In this document: in pieces, positions 2,898 through 47,437 of the stretch
Numbering within the stretch: the stretch's first letter is position 1
Layout of the letters: each line of letters begins with the position of its first letter
From: Acetobacter ascendens
GTDB taxonomy: Bacteria; Pseudomonadota; Alphaproteobacteria; Acetobacterales; Acetobacteraceae
DNA: 64,000 nt
Assembly (NCBI RefSeq): GCF_001766235.1
Contig: NZ_CP015164.1
Coordinates: 2,135,001-2,199,000, forward strand
Direction of reading: 5' to 3'
Translations under genes and position numbers: made by a program
The notes under the pieces: model-generated
Database searches by the model: none
Told to the model about the DNA's origin: nothing
Seen by the model: the letters and a program-made list of their open reading frames with translations, nothing else

Positions 2898-4046
2898 CTA
2901 GTGTGCGGCGCGCCATGCCTTGGTGGTGGCCGCAATAACCTGCTGCTGGTTCTGCTTTATTTTGTCCACATCATAGCCAAGGGCGGCACTCTGCTGGGGC
3001 GTCATGTACCCCCACTGCACCAGAGATTGCGCCAGAGTTTGCGGAAACGGCACAGTTTTTACAAACTGCTTGGGGCAGGAAGCACCATCCTTGTTCTGGG
3101 GCCATGCGGCTTTATCCAGCGCGCACCATGTTTCTGCAAAATCAGAGTGCGTATCATACCGCGCCATCATATAGCGCCAGCCTGCGTTCAGTTCCCCAAT
3201 ATTCGCGCTGGTGGCCACATAGGCAGCCAGATAGCCGTTTACTTCCGTTACACCCGTTTTGCGCCACTGTGCAGAATCCTGCGCAAGCTGGTTGCGCAAA
3301 TAGGCTGCAAACCGAGGTTGCGCCGTAACATTCTGCAACTGGCCATCCTGATACTGATACAGCACCACCGGCATGGCTGAACCTGCGTGAGAGGCAAAGG
3401 CGTAATCAAACCGCTCATCCGTATACACAAGCTGGCGGGTGCCATCTCGCGCAATATCCTGCACGATAGGCTCCCCTCCGCCATTTTGTGCGGGTAGTGA
3501 CAGCACGCGCCATTGGCCTTGCGCGGCGGCCTCTACAATAGCGGCAGCCTGGCAACAATGCGCCCCACCTGTGTAGCCCGAAACCACAACTTGCGGCAGC
3601 GCATCCTTCTGCCCGTTTGGCGTAAGCTGATACAGGGAAATGTTTAAATCCATCAGCCCGGCGCTATCTTCCGCCATCAGGCTGCCTAAGGTTTGGATAA
3701 ATGCGGGATGATCTGGCGCATTTACCTCTAAAGTAGCCACACGGCATGTTTGCCCGGCTGTTGGGTTTTCATCCTTCCCCAAAAGCAGGCTATTGGCTGG
3801 GCATGGCTGTTTGTCTGCCACTTTTACAGCAGCTTTTACGCTTAAGGCAGACAAGGCCACCGGTTGAGCTTTTGCGTGCAGATCATCCCCCTACACCTGC
3901 CCGGTTGCTAGTGGGGGCACCGTGCGCGGTTGCGCATTGCGCGTGATAATCCGCTGTTCTGCTGGACTTGCTGCATGTGCCTGCACATATGGCAGCCCTG
4001 TGCCAGCCAACACCATACATGCGCCCAGATACCGTATAAAAGCCAA
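2898..4046 (-). pseudogene. secreted periplasmic protein with internal amber stop
   Basis: One continuous frame runs from a TTG at 4044-4046 (GGAAGG nine nt upstream) to the stop at 2898, broken only by a TAG at 3891-3893. Before the TAG lies a good signal peptide ending YVQAHA. After it the same frame continues for more than 330 codons with a Cys-containing periplasmic-type sequence (GGAHCCQAA, ETWCALDKA, GASCPKQF). A CAG-to-TAG change would explain the break. The remaining open part has only a GTG at 3860 without a ribosome-binding site and no signal peptide, so the gene is probably inactive unless the stop is read through. I do not recognise the family. It follows the MFS gene by about 40 bp. 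Confidence 0.7.
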
Positions 4047-4087
4047 ACCGTTTTTTCCTTCCTGCGCGTTGCCACCTGCCTGCTGTT

Positions 4088-5350
4088 TTATATCCGTTGT
4101 GGATACAGCCGGGCATTCAGGAGTGTAAGCACCAGCACAACCACTGCGCCACCCCCAACAGCCAACATAAGCGCAGGCGCCAACCCCATACCCAATTGGG
4201 TAGCAAACCATGTTTGAAGCAAAGCGTTACTGGCAGCAATAAGGTTCCCGCACTGATAGGCAAGGCCGGGGAAGGTGGCCCGCACAGATGGGGGCGAAAG
4301 CTCGCTTAAATAGGCAGGTACCACGCCCCACGCGCCCTGAATACAGAACTGGATACACACAGCCCCAAGCCCCAGCCAGAGCAGAGAATGCGGGAGTGTC
4401 CATAATGGCAGCAAAGGCAGTGTTAAGGCCGCGGCAAAAATAATGGCATATTGCCGCCCGATTTTTTGCGATAGAAACCCAAAAAACAACCCACCCGCAA
4501 TTGCAGCCAGATTATATAGCACCACAACGGTTGTAATGGACGTAGGCGGCACATGCCGTTCCAGCGCCAGAAACACCTTGGGGTAGAGATCCTGAGAACC
4601 GTGGCTCATGAAATTGAAAGCAGCCATCAGCACCACAGCAAAAACACATAATGCCGCATTGCCTTTTATAATGGCCAACAAACCAAGATGCGCTTCTGCT
4701 TGTCCGTGCTGTGTATCGGCCTTCTGCCGGGCCAGCCAATCTGGGCTTTCTGGCACACGCAGCCAGATATACAGGGCAGAAAAAATAGCGCCACTGCCCA
4801 GCACAAATAGCCCACGCCACCCCAGAACTGGCAATAGCAAAAATACCAAGGATGCCAGCAAATACCCCGCAGGATACCCCGCCTGCAAAATACCCGAAGC
4901 CGTGCCACGCCAGCTTTTGGGCACGCTTTCCATAATCAGGGATGTGCCCACCCCCCATTCACCCCCAAGCGCAATACCAAACAGAGTGCGCAGCGCCAAA
5001 AATATAACAAGGGTTGGCGCAAAGGCCGATGCCAATTCTATTAAGGAATAAATAATAATTGTTAAAATAAGCACGGGCTTGCGGCCATATTTATCTGCCG
5101 CGCGCCCACATAAAAAGGCGCCTAGTGGCCGCGTCATCAACGTAAGTGTGGGCGCAAGCAGCACACTTTGCAGGGAAACGTTAAAACTGCGTGCCACATC
5201 ATCAAGTGTGAACAACACAATAAAAAAATCGCACGCATCCAACATCCATGCCAAAAAGGATGCCAACACAACATGGCGCGCTGTTGCTTTATCTACCGAC
5301 TGATCAGGCAGAGTAGACGGTGTTACAGACGAAAAAGAAGGCTCGGTCAT
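4088..5350 (-). CDS. MFS transporter, carboxylate/metabolite:H+ symporter type
   Basis: A 420-residue inner-membrane protein with about twelve hydrophobic segments. Loop 2-3 carries LMTRPLGAFLCGRAADKYGRK, the MFS signature, and the central loop carries RVPESPDWLARQ, as in the SHS/NanT/Jen1-like carboxylate transporters. The ATG at 5350 is preceded by GGAG at 6 nt. It lies directly downstream of the acyl-CoA synthetase and the 2-methylcitrate operon on the same strand, so propionate, lactate or another short carboxylate is a plausible substrate. That is inference from position. A hairpin at 5504-5530 separates it from the synthetase gene. Confidence 0.82.
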   Translation of the reverse strand: MTEPSFSSVTPSTLPDQSVDKATARHVVLASFLAWMLDACDFFIVLFTLDDVARSFNVSLQSVLLAPTLTLMTRPLGAFLCGRAADKYGRKPVLILTIIIYSLIELASAFAPTLVIFLALRTLFGIALGGEWGVGTSLIMESVPKSWRGTASGILQAGYPAGYLLASLVFLLLPVLGWRGLFVLGSGAIFSALYIWLRVPESPDWLARQKADTQHGQAEAHLGLLAIIKGNAALCVFAVVLMAAFNFMSHGSQDLYPKVFLALERHVPPTSITTVVVLYNLAAIAGGLFFGFLSQKIGRQYAIIFAAALTLPLLPLWTLPHSLLWLGLGAVCIQFCIQGAWGVVPAYLSELSPPSVRATFPGLAYQCGNLIAASNALLQTWFATQLGMGLAPALMLAVGGGAVVVLVLTLLNARLYPQRI

Positions 5351-42965: not shown

Positions 42966-45311
42966 TCACCAGCCCGGAACACCCGGCACCCGTGGCGTTG
43001 AAAGTGGATCTGGCATAGCATTACTTGCCCGCATTTCGCGGTCATAATCCTTCCTAACCACACTTTGCACATGCCCGGCGATCTGCTTGCCATCTAGGTA
43101 AACAGATACATGCGTGTCACCTTCCTGAACCGTTGTTGGCTGGGTTCGCATCTGCACAGGGGGCGTCCATGCGCCAGTTGGGGTTACGTTTACTTTGCGG
43201 GCAATCCCATCGCTTTGAAGAAAGCCCTCATTAATCGCGTATGTAGCTGCACCTAAAAGCCCCCCGCCCAAAGCGCCGAAAGCTGCCGCTGGCACTGCCG
43301 GAACGCCCCCAAAAGGTAGCGCTACTGTTGCCCCTGTCGCAGCACCTGCGGCCGCACCGCTAACTCCAGCCTCGATAAAGCGCCGCAACCACCCCGGCAA
43401 ACTGTCCATGGCCTTCCCAATAAGGCCGCCCACACTCGTTACGACTTGCAGCAACATATAAACATCATTGGCAAACATACGGATATCGTCAGGATGTTTC
43501 TCAGCGAAGTCTGCCATGCCGTTAAAGGTTTGGGTCAGCAGATTGATGGACTTCACAAACGGCCCCTGAGTAATGCGGCCTATCGTAAACTCTAGCCGTT
43601 CGAAGGAAGTATCCATCGCCAACTGGGCGGCTTTCGGGCCTTTTGCTAGGGCATCAAGCGTTTTGGCTACATCTGTGCGCCTTGCCGCGGCAGACTGCCG
43701 AGCAATGTTACCCTCTGCGCCGGTTGTCTCATTAACCACATCTTGAACATTGTTACGCTGGAAATATCCTATCATTTCAGGGTGCGCCCTCAGCAGGGGT
43801 GAGATATGCTTCGTAATCCATCCAATCGGATCTTCAGCAAGCGTTTGCTGATCGACAAACTGACCGTTACGGCCAATTAATCCGAACTTCTTTTGGCTAA
43901 AATACGCGAAATCCTTCTTCGTCATGCGGGTATGGTTGCCGAGGAATAAATCGTCAAACGACTTAATAGCGGTTGCCGCGCGGTTCGGATTGACATCGAT
44001 GAAATGGGAAAAATTCAACAGCCCCTCATCAGACATACGCATGCCTTCTGCGCCCGCTGATTTGGCAAATGCCAAAAACTTGTGACCATTCATGAACTGC
44101 TTGTTAGCAATATACATTGCCAACGCTGTATTCGTGCTTTTTTCTGCGCGATCGAACGAAAACTGGCCCGTCTTCTTATCGTAAAACCTATTGGAAAGAT
44201 CCTGCGCCCGGATAAAGTCTATGCTTTCCTTCATGGCGGCTTCTGGGCTCTTGCCCATAAGAAGAAAAGATTTATCAACCCGGTTTAGGAGGCTGGCAAT
44301 GTGTGGCGACTCTCCCACTTCGCCCCCAGACAATTGGTACGATTCCTGTGCAATCCGGGCAGCATCATTAGGCGCAAGAAACGGGTTATCCTTCATCGAT
44401 TGCTGCGCGATTGCCTGAATGGCCCCCATATTCTGCGCGGCCACAGGGTCGCCACTCATCCCCCGGAATGTCTGGTCATACCCGGCTGCCTGATCAAACC
44501 CACTGGCGGCAAAGTGCGCTACACCATGAGCCCCCTCATAAGCTGCTAGAGGACCCACCCAATGCGGCAGACGTGCTGCGGCTGCTATGGTTGCGCCACG
44601 CTCGGCCATGTTTGCGGCAGGTGAGCCAGAAGGCGCGTTAGAAATCGGCTTCCACGGCCCGTAGGTCTGGTTCCCGCCCACCCACTTGCCATCCATGCGC
44701 AAGTTTCCCGGATACGGGATAAGGGCAGTCCCCGGGACAGGCTCACTCTGCGTCCAATTTGGCCGATAATCAGCAGGATTTTCAACGCGACGAAAGTTAG
44801 GGGTATTCCCCATACTATCGCCATGCCCCGGCAGCGGAATAAGCGCAGTTCCGGTCTGTGGAGGCGGCAATAACGGAACAGGAGCGCCCGGCACATTCAT
44901 AGCCGCAGCAGAATATGGAGAAACGTAAGAACCACCGGCATCTGTAATCGGCGTAGCTGATGGCGGAACGGGAGATGTCGCACGCGCGCGACCAGTCGGC
45001 ACAGGAGATACGAAGGGCGCAAAGCCTCCAGCACCCTCGCCAGACTGCGGAGCAACAGGCGCACGAAACTTAGTGGAAGCCGCAGCAATCGTGCGCGCTG
45101 CCCGTGCTGCACGCTCCATATCAGAGGCCATACCAGCGGTTAGTCGCCGCGCGCCGCCCAGAGACGAAACCATGTTGTTGAAGCCCATCTGCACGTCTTT
45201 CTGGGTAGACGCCAGACGTTCCAGAGCGCGGATCATTTCGCCAACAGGACCGACAACCTGTGTGGCATCAGCGACTAGCGAGACACCGATTTTATAGGCT
45301 TCAACAGTCAT
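42966..45311 (-). CDS. tail tape-measure protein
   Basis: 781 residues: an N-terminal helical region (EMIRALERLASTQKDVQMGF), a Pro/Gly-rich linker (about 85-220), then a long helical body with Ala/Gly-rich membrane-like segments (AAAGAATGATVALPFGGVP) near the C-terminus. Its length, composition and place after the tail chaperones identify it. It sets tail length. Confidence 0.85.
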   Translation of the reverse strand: MTVEAYKIGVSLVADATQVVGPVGEMIRALERLASTQKDVQMGFNNMVSSLGGARRLTAGMASDMERAARAARTIAAASTKFRAPVAPQSGEGAGGFAPFVSPVPTGRARATSPVPPSATPITDAGGSYVSPYSAAAMNVPGAPVPLLPPPQTGTALIPLPGHGDSMGNTPNFRRVENPADYRPNWTQSEPVPGTALIPYPGNLRMDGKWVGGNQTYGPWKPISNAPSGSPAANMAERGATIAAAARLPHWVGPLAAYEGAHGVAHFAASGFDQAAGYDQTFRGMSGDPVAAQNMGAIQAIAQQSMKDNPFLAPNDAARIAQESYQLSGGEVGESPHIASLLNRVDKSFLLMGKSPEAAMKESIDFIRAQDLSNRFYDKKTGQFSFDRAEKSTNTALAMYIANKQFMNGHKFLAFAKSAGAEGMRMSDEGLLNFSHFIDVNPNRAATAIKSFDDLFLGNHTRMTKKDFAYFSQKKFGLIGRNGQFVDQQTLAEDPIGWITKHISPLLRAHPEMIGYFQRNNVQDVVNETTGAEGNIARQSAAARRTDVAKTLDALAKGPKAAQLAMDTSFERLEFTIGRITQGPFVKSINLLTQTFNGMADFAEKHPDDIRMFANDVYMLLQVVTSVGGLIGKAMDSLPGWLRRFIEAGVSGAAAGAATGATVALPFGGVPAVPAAAFGALGGGLLGAATYAINEGFLQSDGIARKVNVTPTGAWTPPVQMRTQPTTVQEGDTHVSVYLDGKQIAGHVQSVVRKDYDREMRASNAMPDPLSTPRVPGVPGW

Positions 45312-45451
45312 AATTATTTCCTACTGGAGAGCATCCAGAGTCTCATGCTTGAGGAGGCAGTACAAGGGTTGTGAGGCCGCATGGTCAGGGGAATGATCTC
45401 GGTAGGATCCCAAAAGTTGCCTTCCCACGAGACTTCGCTTAAGAAGCCCCC

Positions 45452-46285
45452 GTGCTAGATAAAAATCCGACATCTGACGAAGGATCTGGCAACCCAATTT
45501 CTTCTGAGGCTTGCCTTCGTCTTCCGTGGCCAGATTGGTTTCCTCCTGTAACGATCCATTCCCCTTATGGAAGCAAGTCAGTGAGTGGATTCGTGTATTG
45601 CAAGGATCCCGACGTAAACTGCGCTAAATCCATTGGTGATGTAGATGCGGCTTTTTGTGCGGTCGATAAATTTATAGATGCTTCAGCATTAGAAAAAATT
45701 TCCCAGAATTTGTGTGGCATTACTACATACGTGGTTGCCCCTGCGAAGCCACCAGACGCGCGCCGTAATGTCCTTGCTCTTACTTTTGCCGCAATTATCG
45801 CCCAAGAATTGGGCTTAGAGCTAGCGGATAACATCTTTCAATATCCTCGTGCAAAGCGCGATAGAAATGGAAACTTTGTTTTTCGCATAGCAAATGCGCC
45901 AGAATTTTTTGGTGACATTGTCGCCAACGCCGACTATGTTGTTGTTGACGACGTATTGACATATGGCGGAACTCTTGCTGGGCTACGCGCATATATAGAA
46001 TGCAACGGTGGCAGAGTAATCTGTATGTCTACTCTCGCTGGCAATCCACCTGGAGAAGAGCAGATCGCCGTTACACCATCGTCTATAGCGAGTCTTAGTC
46101 GTATGGAGGGTGGTAAGTTAAATGAGTTTTTTTTGGAGGTATTAGGTTATGGACTTGACTGTTTCACGGAACGGGAAGCTGGCAAACTCCGATCGCTCCT
46201 CCAAAAGGAGTGGAAAAAAAATTTCTCTTTGGACTTCCTCAGAAAAAGAATCCTTCGTGAACGACACGAAGCGGCTACAGGCTGA
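45452..46285 (+). CDS. phosphoribosyltransferase-domain protein (cargo)
   Basis: 277 residues. ADYVVVDDVLTYGGTLAGLR is the PRPP-binding motif of type I phosphoribosyltransferases. Upstream, APAKPPDARRNVLALTFAAI fits the fold's beta-alpha start, and the C-terminal 80 residues are helical. GTG start at 45452 with a weak ribosome-binding site. It lies on the opposite strand between tape measure and tail genes, so it is an inserted cargo gene; nucleotide salvage or a defence/exclusion role are both possible. A second gene overlaps its 3' end in another frame. Confidence 0.7.
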   Translation: MLDKNPTSDEGSGNPISSEACLRLPWPDWFPPVTIHSPYGSKSVSGFVYCKDPDVNCAKSIGDVDAAFCAVDKFIDASALEKISQNLCGITTYVVAPAKPPDARRNVLALTFAAIIAQELGLELADNIFQYPRAKRDRNGNFVFRIANAPEFFGDIVANADYVVVDDVLTYGGTLAGLRAYIECNGGRVICMSTLAGNPPGEEQIAVTPSSIASLSRMEGGKLNEFFLEVLGYGLDCFTEREAGKLRSLLQKEWKKNFSLDFLRKRILRERHEAATG

Positions 46286-46358
46286 GATTAATGCAAAAGT
46301 CACAACCCGCACGCCTCGGTTTGGACTAACAAAGCCCAAAGTTAGGAAGTGCGCCTAG
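46149..46358 (+). CDS. small basic protein overlapping the PRTase gene
   Basis: 69 residues, highly basic (KRSGKKISLWTSSEKESF ... PRFGLTKPKVRKCA). ATG 46149 has GGAGG nine nt upstream, inside the PRTase coding region, and the frames overlap by 137 bp. A strong site and a 73-bp non-overlapping end favour a real gene, possibly a DNA- or RNA-binding partner. Confidence 0.55.
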   Translation: MDLTVSRNGKLANSDRSSKRSGKKISLWTSSEKESFVNDTKRLQAEINAKVTTRTPRFGLTKPKVRKCA

Positions 46359-46438: not shown

Positions 46439-46945
46439 TCACTCATCCCCTTCCCGCTGGTTAGGAAGGGGTAGCCCACACATCGCACGAACAGCAAGCG
46501 CACCAATACGACGCACGATCTTGTGCTCATTCCTAAAGGCCGCCACAGAAAGCTCTGGGCGTGGCGGCTGATAGTTTTTCTGCTCCATGCGGCCAAGTTC
46601 AAACACTACGGCCTTGATGTCGTCAGAACCAATAGAAGCATGCACCACAGGACCGGCCTCGGATATACGTACGCCATAGCTCTCGCGCATATCGCCGGTT
46701 CGTAACCCCGGATCATCCGGCGTAAATCCCAACCTGATACGCTCGTCTATAGTGCTGTCTGCCAGTGGAGCAGTTGGCAAACCGGGTTCAGGCCCATCCA
46801 AATAATGGCCGATCTGTTCTTTCGTATCGCGCTCAATAAGGGCAGCGCCCTCTTCCACGCCACGATGAACGGCCACATCAACCGCAAGCCCCCTTGTCGT
46901 CAGATGGCCTATGAATCCCTCAATGGTCTTAAACTGCCGCACCAT
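46439..46945 (-). CDS. tail completion protein, HK97 gp10-like
   Basis: 168 residues: APLADSTIDERIRLGF, GLRTGDMRESYGVRI and a late VFELGRMEQKNYQPPRP match the head-tail/tail-completion pattern of gp10-like proteins (substrate peptide RTGDL, ELG...PPRP). ATG 46945 follows GAGGTG. It overlaps the end of the chaperone extension. Confidence 0.65.
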   Translation of the reverse strand: MVRQFKTIEGFIGHLTTRGLAVDVAVHRGVEEGAALIERDTKEQIGHYLDGPEPGLPTAPLADSTIDERIRLGFTPDDPGLRTGDMRESYGVRISEAGPVVHASIGSDDIKAVVFELGRMEQKNYQPPRPELSVAAFRNEHKIVRRIGALAVRAMCGLPLPNQREGDE

Positions 46946-47437
46946 CTGGCACCTCAATGAACATCATGGCATTCCAATCGAACGTTTCCCCACGCATTTC
47001 GCGCAGAGCTACGCAGGCGGCCAACCTGCGCTTATCGCTCCATTTCCCGCAAACTTCCCACGGCACCCCATTTTGAACGAGAAACAGCATTTCCCTAAAA
47101 ATGGGGTGCTCGCTCAGTTTTTTACTGCGGCCTTTTCATCGGCAGAACTGGCGTCTTTTTTACCGTAAAAAATCGGCATCAGCGCAGCTACGCCATCATT
47201 GCCGATATCGTTGGCCAGTTCCTTCACTTCGTCTTTCGTAATCGGCATCTGCACAGGCACACCATCAATAGCCGTCACAGAGCAGACCATCTGCGCATAC
47301 CCCAGCCACGCACCGGCAAACTGTGAACTCATGGCAGAGCCTGCGGCTTCAATCAGATCCAGCATACTGCCCGGATCAATTTCTTTCAGGGAAAGAGTTT
47401 TACCTGCTGCCGTTTTAACTTCTGCTGGAATGCTCAT
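46929..47437 (-). CDS. tail assembly chaperone GT-type fusion (-1 frameshift)
   Basis: After the A AAA AAC site (47123-47117) the -1 frame stays open to TAA at 46929 and encodes EHPIFREMLFLVQNGVPWEV ... RRLAACVALREMRGETFDW, a T-type domain normally joined to G by frameshifting. The fusion would be about 169 residues. This arrangement is conserved in long-tailed phages, where both forms coat the tape measure. Confidence 0.75.
47114..47437 (-). CDS. tail assembly chaperone G-type
   Basis: 107 residues, SIPAEVKTAAGKTLSLKEID, DLIEAAGSAM, ending AVKN then TGA. Position between tube and tape measure and the frameshift extension define it. Overlaps the tube gene by 4 bp. Confidence 0.8.
   Translation of the reverse strand: MSIPAEVKTAAGKTLSLKEIDPGSMLDLIEAAGSAMSSQFAGAWLGYAQMVCSVTAIDGVPVQMPITKDEVKELANDIGNDGVAALMPIFYGKKDASSADEKAAVKN
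47117..47123 (-). promoter_or_regulatory. -1 ribosomal frameshift site A AAA AAC
   Basis: In zero frame GTA AAA AAC TGA, so the slippery heptamer lies directly before the G stop. Slippage gives CTG AGC GAG in the T frame. Confidence 0.75.

Follow-up and report, generated by a model that had tools for sequence, protein, structure and literature searches.

What is encoded by a two-gene unit that lies within a prophage tail operon on the strand opposite to its neighbours, and whose second gene begins, out of frame, inside the first? This question is raised by a stretch of 64,000 nucleotides from Acetobacter ascendens (NZ_CP015164.1, positions 2,135,001 to 2,199,000; referred to as the window, in which all unprefixed positions are given). 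The first gene (45452..46285, + strand) has a GTG start and encodes a protein of 277 amino acids containing a motif for binding of phosphoribosyl pyrophosphate (PRPP), VVVDDVLTYGGTLAGL (residues 163–178; 45938..45985, + strand); it is a predicted phosphoribosyltransferase (PRTase). The second, nested gene (46149..46358, + strand) has an ATG start, is read in the +1 frame, which is kept in homologs, and encodes a basic protein of 69 amino acids (17 K/R versus 6 D/E). The two genes overlap by 137 nt (46149..46285, + strand), the last 23 codons of the nested gene lie past the PRTase stop, and a Shine-Dalgarno-like GGAGG (46135..46139, + strand) stands 9 nt before the nested ATG, at a place where such sites are enriched in homologs. 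Both reading frames, the PRPP motif, the GGAGG start and the basic 69-residue product had been noticed in the original prediction from the sequence and were found as placed. What seems to be new is that this is a conserved small gene nested in an enzyme domain across plasmids and phages.

The window alone is no proof of the small gene, since open reading frames (ORFs) of this length are common in synonymous-codon shuffles of the PRTase gene: an out-of-frame ORF with an ATG start, at least 69 amino acids long and crossing the PRTase stop, arose in 16.7% of the shuffles and one of at least 60 amino acids with a Shine-Dalgarno-like site in 9.3%. In PRTase relatives, which were found by the PRTase frame alone, a +1 ORF lies over the C-terminus and carries the common motif LTPSEIxSLRxxK. 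For a quantitative comparison 72 PRTase matches including the window were kept (score of at least 60, profile end of at least 225), leaving out the loci L004, L015–L018, L118, L120, L130 and parts of L003 and skipping duplicates at the same place. These were reduced to 48 representatives with less than 70% identity and, as L104 and L111 have no anchor column, to 46. Four tests for selection followed, each of which takes the constraint from the PRTase amino acids into account.

Over a stretch of 34 codons, the +1 frame is free of stops in 45 of the 46 representatives (13.3 expected, P = 3e-31) and the +2 frame in 4 (11.1 expected), showing that the PRTase and nested genes are genetically linked; the original prediction had named a lack of conserved co-occurrence or a decayed small frame as what would count against it, and the pair withstands this check. 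The second test concerns the AGA codon of Arg264 of the PRTase (46241..46243, + strand), which gives a conserved Glu in the nested frame. Among 40 Arg-bearing representatives, 38 use CGA or AGA, the codons that yield this Glu, with 9.6 expected on the basis of the remaining Arg codons in each gene (P about 3e-24); the exceptions are L105 (CGG) and L129 (CGT). Of the six representatives without Arg264, three have Gly GGA, which likewise yields Glu, and the others have Gly GGC, Lys AAG and Thr ACG. This anchor was picked after the motif had been seen, and other Arg columns were tabulated as controls: the 12 up to column 199 are near or under expectation, with 8/27 (7.5 expected), 7/19 (5.7), 5/13 (3.4) and 4/14 (2.7) as the largest excesses, and those beginning with column 205, located before or in the overlap, are elevated (such as 26/35 with 7.9 expected). 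In the third test, 16 pairs were compared at the positions where the residue is identical: the codons differ at 68 of 353 such positions (19%) within the overlap and at 983 of 1972 (50%) upstream of it; as three Moraxella pairs are near-copies, the test was also run without two near-copy pairs and gave P = 4e-22. Finally, an upstream ATG in the open +1 frame is present in 44 of the 46 representatives (11.7 expected), and one combined with a Shine-Dalgarno-like site of at least 4 nt or at least 5 nt in 33 (3.8 expected) and 23 (1.8 expected), respectively. One rule was used there for real and shuffled sequences; the separate choice of a start for each gene favours good Shine-Dalgarno sites. A regular expression for the nested motif, chosen after the data had been seen, fits 41 of the 46 with 2.3 expected. 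Taken together, these comparisons indicate that the nested gene is almost certainly real, that selection acts on both frames and that the arrangement is conserved. The nested frame as the shifted C-terminus of a once longer PRTase was also considered and was ruled out, as in homologs the PRTase frame continues up to where the window protein ends.

The nested frame overlies the last two helices of the PRTase, and AlphaFold2 predicts for the 69-residue protein a single confident helix at residues 30–53 (codons 46236..46307, + strand; block means of 97 and 95 over residues 31–50), the rest being loose. It accompanies the PRTase domain whether this stands alone, is fused to MuF, or is part of KfrC or of polyvalent proteins, and the C-terminus of the window nested protein was also found in L036 and L032. 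A nested peptide of the RK2 type, taken as query from pUZ8002, matches 106 plasmid records, and about 40 of the 50 listed appear to be KfrC/PRTase genes, judging from feature names or high identity. An IncP KfrC gene without the PRTase domain (L158, 2324–2977) is also without the nested motif on that strand; the same N-terminal deletion of KfrC has been reported for R751 (PMC8124265). The pair, which had been predicted from one prophage, is thus a real and conserved two-gene unit, but its nested gene is not peculiar to this prophage.

With respect to the enzyme, the match of the window PRTase to PF00156 is under the cutoff (19.6 versus 26.3 bits), and phrog_22413, a family of unassigned function, is matched at 4e-24. 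Its AlphaFold2 model (pLDDT 90.4) matches PRTases of the PDB, the best solved structure being ComF of H. pylori (7p0h; Z 10.7 over 157 residues at 3.1 Å, with 16% of the aligned residues identical), followed by APRT and further PRTases at about one Z unit less. ComFC differs from the window protein: it is a competence protein encoded on the chromosome, contains a zinc finger and handles single-stranded DNA (PMC9005727). Residues D166, D167, G172 and G173 of the PRPP motif are invariant in 35 aligned PRTase sequences. The window PRTase matches 94 plasmid records, of which 92 cover at least 80% of the query, and two Moraxella phage records with MuF-PRTase proteins. Its closest described sequence relatives are the N-terminal half of KfrC from IncP and IncU plasmids, these Moraxella MuF-PRTases and giant polyvalent proteins. 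Homology beyond generic PRTases, the DD motif and a mobile carrier place it among the mobile-element PRTases of the polyvalent/KfrC type. A single-protein scan of genome contigs with the PRTase found no relative, a DNA search of the unit in phages gave no match, and a DNA search of 49 genomes of the genus recovered its own genome only, plus a match of 56 bases to the upstream part in G025. In one relative (L041, 266–1114) DG replaces the DD pair and the nested frame is still kept; there the nested gene may outlast catalysis.

Among these relatives KfrC is the one for which the most informative experiment has been published. KfrC of the IncP-1alpha RK2 type and of IncU RA3 belongs to the same PRTase family (about 30–35% identity across about 90% of the query among the rows listed) and has the same PRPP motif and the same nested +1 gene. 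Unlike the window gene, it is part of plasmid stability modules and carries an additional C-terminal domain, NF042916 (4e-64 in L008), which had no reported match in the window protein up to an E of 1, and simply filing the unit as KfrC was ruled out for this reason. The full kfrC gene of RA3 slows growth of E. coli whereas a mutant with DDT changed to AAA does not, a C-terminal piece is harmless, and cloning of a fragment encoding residues 1–249 gave rearrangements, so that it was not obtained; toxicity of the full gene is host-dependent and was absent in C. necator (PMC8124265). In the IncU plasmid pFBAOT6, whose KfrC has the same length as that of RA3 (355 amino acids) and its DDT at position 141, the nested gene corresponds to KfrC codons 207–259 and is preceded by GGAGG 13 nt before its ATG. 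Because of this position, the 1–249 clone would truncate the nested gene while the full gene keeps it; this mapping was made here on the relative pFBAOT6 and is not reported in PMC8124265.

Other described systems resemble the unit in part. PRTases of polyvalent proteins are likewise found in mobile elements, solo or fused to MuF and other domains, and their role has been called enigmatic (PMC5512222). In MuF polymorphic toxins, a phage-borne toxin domain is followed by a small ORF that has been proposed as an immunity gene (PMC5576092), and in the Moraxella relatives, which are MuF-PRTases, the nested ORF lies at the 3' end; TIGR01641 is over the cutoff in one of them (L002), whereas in the window PRTase no MuF domain was reported, and the small gene here lies out of frame inside the PRTase domain. 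The PRTase domain of RqlH is reported to be needed for toxicity and to be restrained by RqlI, and in shosTA the toxicity of a PRTase domain is held by a partner, as cited in PMC9122126. Those partners are encoded by larger separate genes, the one in ShosTA being DprA-like, and differ in this from the nested protein of 69 residues. The ShosT model of PADLOC reached 18.8 bits over 34 residues only (163–196), around the PRPP motif of the window PRTase; the ShosT structure 8zvc ranked 46 in Foldseek for the PRTase model and was outside the 50 rows of a second structural list, itself drawn only from the top Foldseek chains. PADLOC detected no DprA-like antitoxin in the nested protein or four nearby genes. 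Simple filing of the unit as ShosTA was ruled out on these PADLOC results.

These likenesses lead us to propose, with a probability of roughly 45%, that one stretch of DNA encodes a PRPP-dependent PRTase that inhibits growth together with a nested partner that neutralizes it, and that the pair serves as cargo acting on the host or rivals. Frame 0 would be translated into a PRTase of the mobile-element kind, and the +1 frame, from its own start site, into a small protein that has one helix and is disordered at its N-terminus. When unchecked, the enzyme would inhibit growth like its plasmid relative KfrC, which we infer because the growth effect of KfrC is tied to the PRTase active site (DDT), and the nested protein would neutralize it; within the prophage, the pair would act on the host or on rival elements. 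As the partner is encoded inside the gene for the enzyme, the two would be hard to separate by recombination. An extension that we regard as possible but less probable is that of a toxin with the immunity gene in its own coding sequence, such that any domain shuffling among phages, virion proteins and conjugative plasmids would carry both, in which case the separate copies on small mobilizable plasmids described below would be orphan antidotes that protect hitch-hikers from the PRTases of helper or rival elements.

Several observations weigh against enzyme and antidote. Loss of the C-terminal domain of KfrC explains the result with the 1–249 fragment equally well. L129 and, as far as could be seen, L104 carry the PRTase but no nested frame (in L111 a nested-type peptide was recognized by eye). 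A transposase gene interrupts the unit in another prophage, L004, so that the unit is dispensable there. Lastly, separate copies of the small gene stand beside genes for mobilization or recombinase proteins, and no PRTase was seen in the surrounding stretch that was viewed. Such copies encode 45 and 84 amino acids on Xanthomonas plasmids and 108 amino acids on pCY-VIM, in each case after a recombinase gene, and 55 amino acids directly 3' of a mobilization-protein gene on an IncQ1/MOBQ plasmid; further stand-alone ORFs occur on MOBV plasmids. A profile made from nested proteins only recovered the ORF in 12 of 12 loci with separate copies (E from 2e-12 to 2e-4), although these loci had been preselected by similarity and the result speaks for consistency, not frequency. 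In genomes of the phylum the small profile matched 25 of 299 at E of at most 0.01; inspection of 14 of the 20 loci retrieved revealed stand-alone copies in L136 and L137 and copies with a PRTase signal in L132, L133, L135 and L139 (weak, 19–21 bits, in L133 and L135), whereas the matches in the other 8 look like chance or are ambiguous. The plasmid copies form a small protein family with the motif LTPxEIEaLRxxM near mobilization or recombinase genes (L161, 475–642; L159, 2480–2806; L160, 2501–2698), and for these three no significant model was found among the Pfam and NCBIfam models scanned. The small family as a whole gave nothing convincing against Pfam, PHROG and NCBIfam, save phrog_33770 (E 4e-11) for one of 17 members.

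The separate copies favour the alternative that we rank second to an antidote, possible but less probable, in which the small protein would serve DNA transfer or establishment as an independent accessory, such as a helper in mobilization, entry or partition. Its separate homologs adjoin the mobilization-protein gene of the IncQ1/MOBQ plasmid, lie near MobC-like ORFs (as read by eye), occur on MOBV plasmids and are found between recombinase and parA, and ComF, the best structural match of the PRTase, handles single-stranded DNA. That such an accessory became overprinted on the PRTase because both serve incoming DNA seems a comparably uncertain idea. Such an accessory accounts poorly for the bond between the nested copy and the PRTase domain across widely differing proteins, among them virion-type MuF fusions of phages without conjugation. 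An obligate subunit or activator of the PRTase, as opposed to an inhibitor, would fit the strict co-occurrence in the same gene and a single helix suited to docking, but separate copies with no PRTase in view and the L129 PRTase without a nested frame make it improbable. It is very improbable that programmed frameshifting gives the PRTase an alternative C-terminus with no separate protein: the frame is +1 throughout and is open for more than six codons upstream of the chosen ATG in 29 of 44 homologs, but the conserved ATG with its Shine-Dalgarno-like site is far over expectation, the +1 frame of the window opens one codon before the ATG, and homologs exist as separate genes. A functionless chance or shadow ORF has next to no likelihood, even though its length is not significant in the window alone and the window small protein found only its own genome in a sample of 397 genomes of the family (no relative in the 396 others) and no match in phages, since +1 openness, the Arg264 codon, synonymous changes and ATG with Shine-Dalgarno-like site all exceed expectation after allowing for PRTase residues, and separate genes exist.

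That the unit is cargo in a mobile element can be seen from the place in which it is found. It is flanked on the left by a gene for a tape-measure-like protein of 781 amino acids (42966..45311, - strand; named by position and size, with no PHROG match) and on the right by a tail-region gene for a protein of 172 amino acids (46439..46957, - strand; weak PHROG match to neck/tail-completion proteins, E 0.15), so that it lies on the opposite strand inside the tail operon, as had been predicted. The operon has a sheath-like gene, and the related prophages are myovirus-like. Using the right-flank protein as query, 18 viral contigs were retrieved in which its gene is kept, and DNA alignment revealed that the gap between it and the tape-measure-like gene is variable in related prophages. 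The gap was measured in 16 loci, leaving out L053 and L065 and setting the right edge of L064 arbitrarily; it is empty in three (L050, L055 and L058; 51–99 nt) and filled in the remainder. According to Pfam, the fillings comprise HicAB with a Peptidase_M78 (ImmA/IrrE-type) protein in L048, a P63C protein in L051, Mrr_cat proteins (Mrr-type nucleases) in L056, L060 and L062, and a SocA_Panacea protein in L063, while a 191-residue protein in L049 has no Pfam match; by eye only, HicAB-like ORFs were recognized in L052 and L054 and nuclease-like ORFs in L057, L059, L061 and L064. A profile search in all six frames of the 18 related loci did not find a PRTase of the window family.

Prophage L004 shares with the window the leader 5' of the PRTase gene (45312..45451, + strand; 84% identity over 140 alignment columns) and the first 76 PRTase codons (83% over 232 columns). 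In L004 this shared segment (3864–4231) lies beside a different tail gene and is followed by a DDE_Tnp_1_4 transposase gene; the remaining PRTase sequence was not found in the 8.3-kb L004 locus. As the same gap is empty or otherwise filled in relatives and the unit is broken in L004, the PRTase/nested unit is prophage cargo, broken in at least one relative, and the cargo nature of the site, already proposed from the sequence, is borne out. The leader, which is conserved between L004 and the window to the same degree as the coding start, could be regulatory; scanning the unit for promoters and terminators gave matches at the level of shuffled sequences only, with no convincing promoter in the leader.

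The original prediction, which conjectured an effect on host defence or exclusion, had also suggested that the system might be undescribed. This seems to be true for the nested gene, of which no description was found in the open-access literature, the scope of the search, which did not extend to subscription papers and preprints; the PRTase family, as polyvalent-protein PRTases and KfrC, is known (PMC5512222, PMC8124265), as are overlapping genes and toxin-antidote pairs. Passages on KfrC in PMC8124265 and PMC7783346 contain no mention of the nested gene, in PMC5512222 neither "overlap" nor "coat" occurs and the nested gene is absent from the section on PRTases, and "phosphoribosyl" was not found in PMC5576092. 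A conserved gene seems to have gone unnoticed within a gene of RK2-type plasmids, themselves laboratory standards, and within many phage proteins. If it is translated, the nested protein may account for part of the phenotypes attributed to KfrC or to PRTase domains, and earlier truncation constructs have to be reinterpreted. The gene also provides a clean testable case of overprinting that holds two proteins together in mobile elements very distant from one another, and a first handle on the role of the enigmatic mobile-element PRTase domain.

With regard to existing annotation, the nested coding sequence is unlisted in six KfrC-type plasmid regions that were viewed, in a PLSDB gene table that is itself incomplete. 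Moraxella phages Mcat8 and Mcat5 carry shortened nested ORFs of 39 and 49 amino acids annotated as hypothetical proteins (L002, 4701–4820; L003, 4251–4400), with the start chosen here lying further upstream, so that the frame had been annotated mechanically before. Among 1474 plasmid records matching KfrC of the RK2 type, many of the listed Klebsiella rows (H104–H142) cover residues 6–79 only, with no annotated gene, and look like a widespread PRTase remnant.
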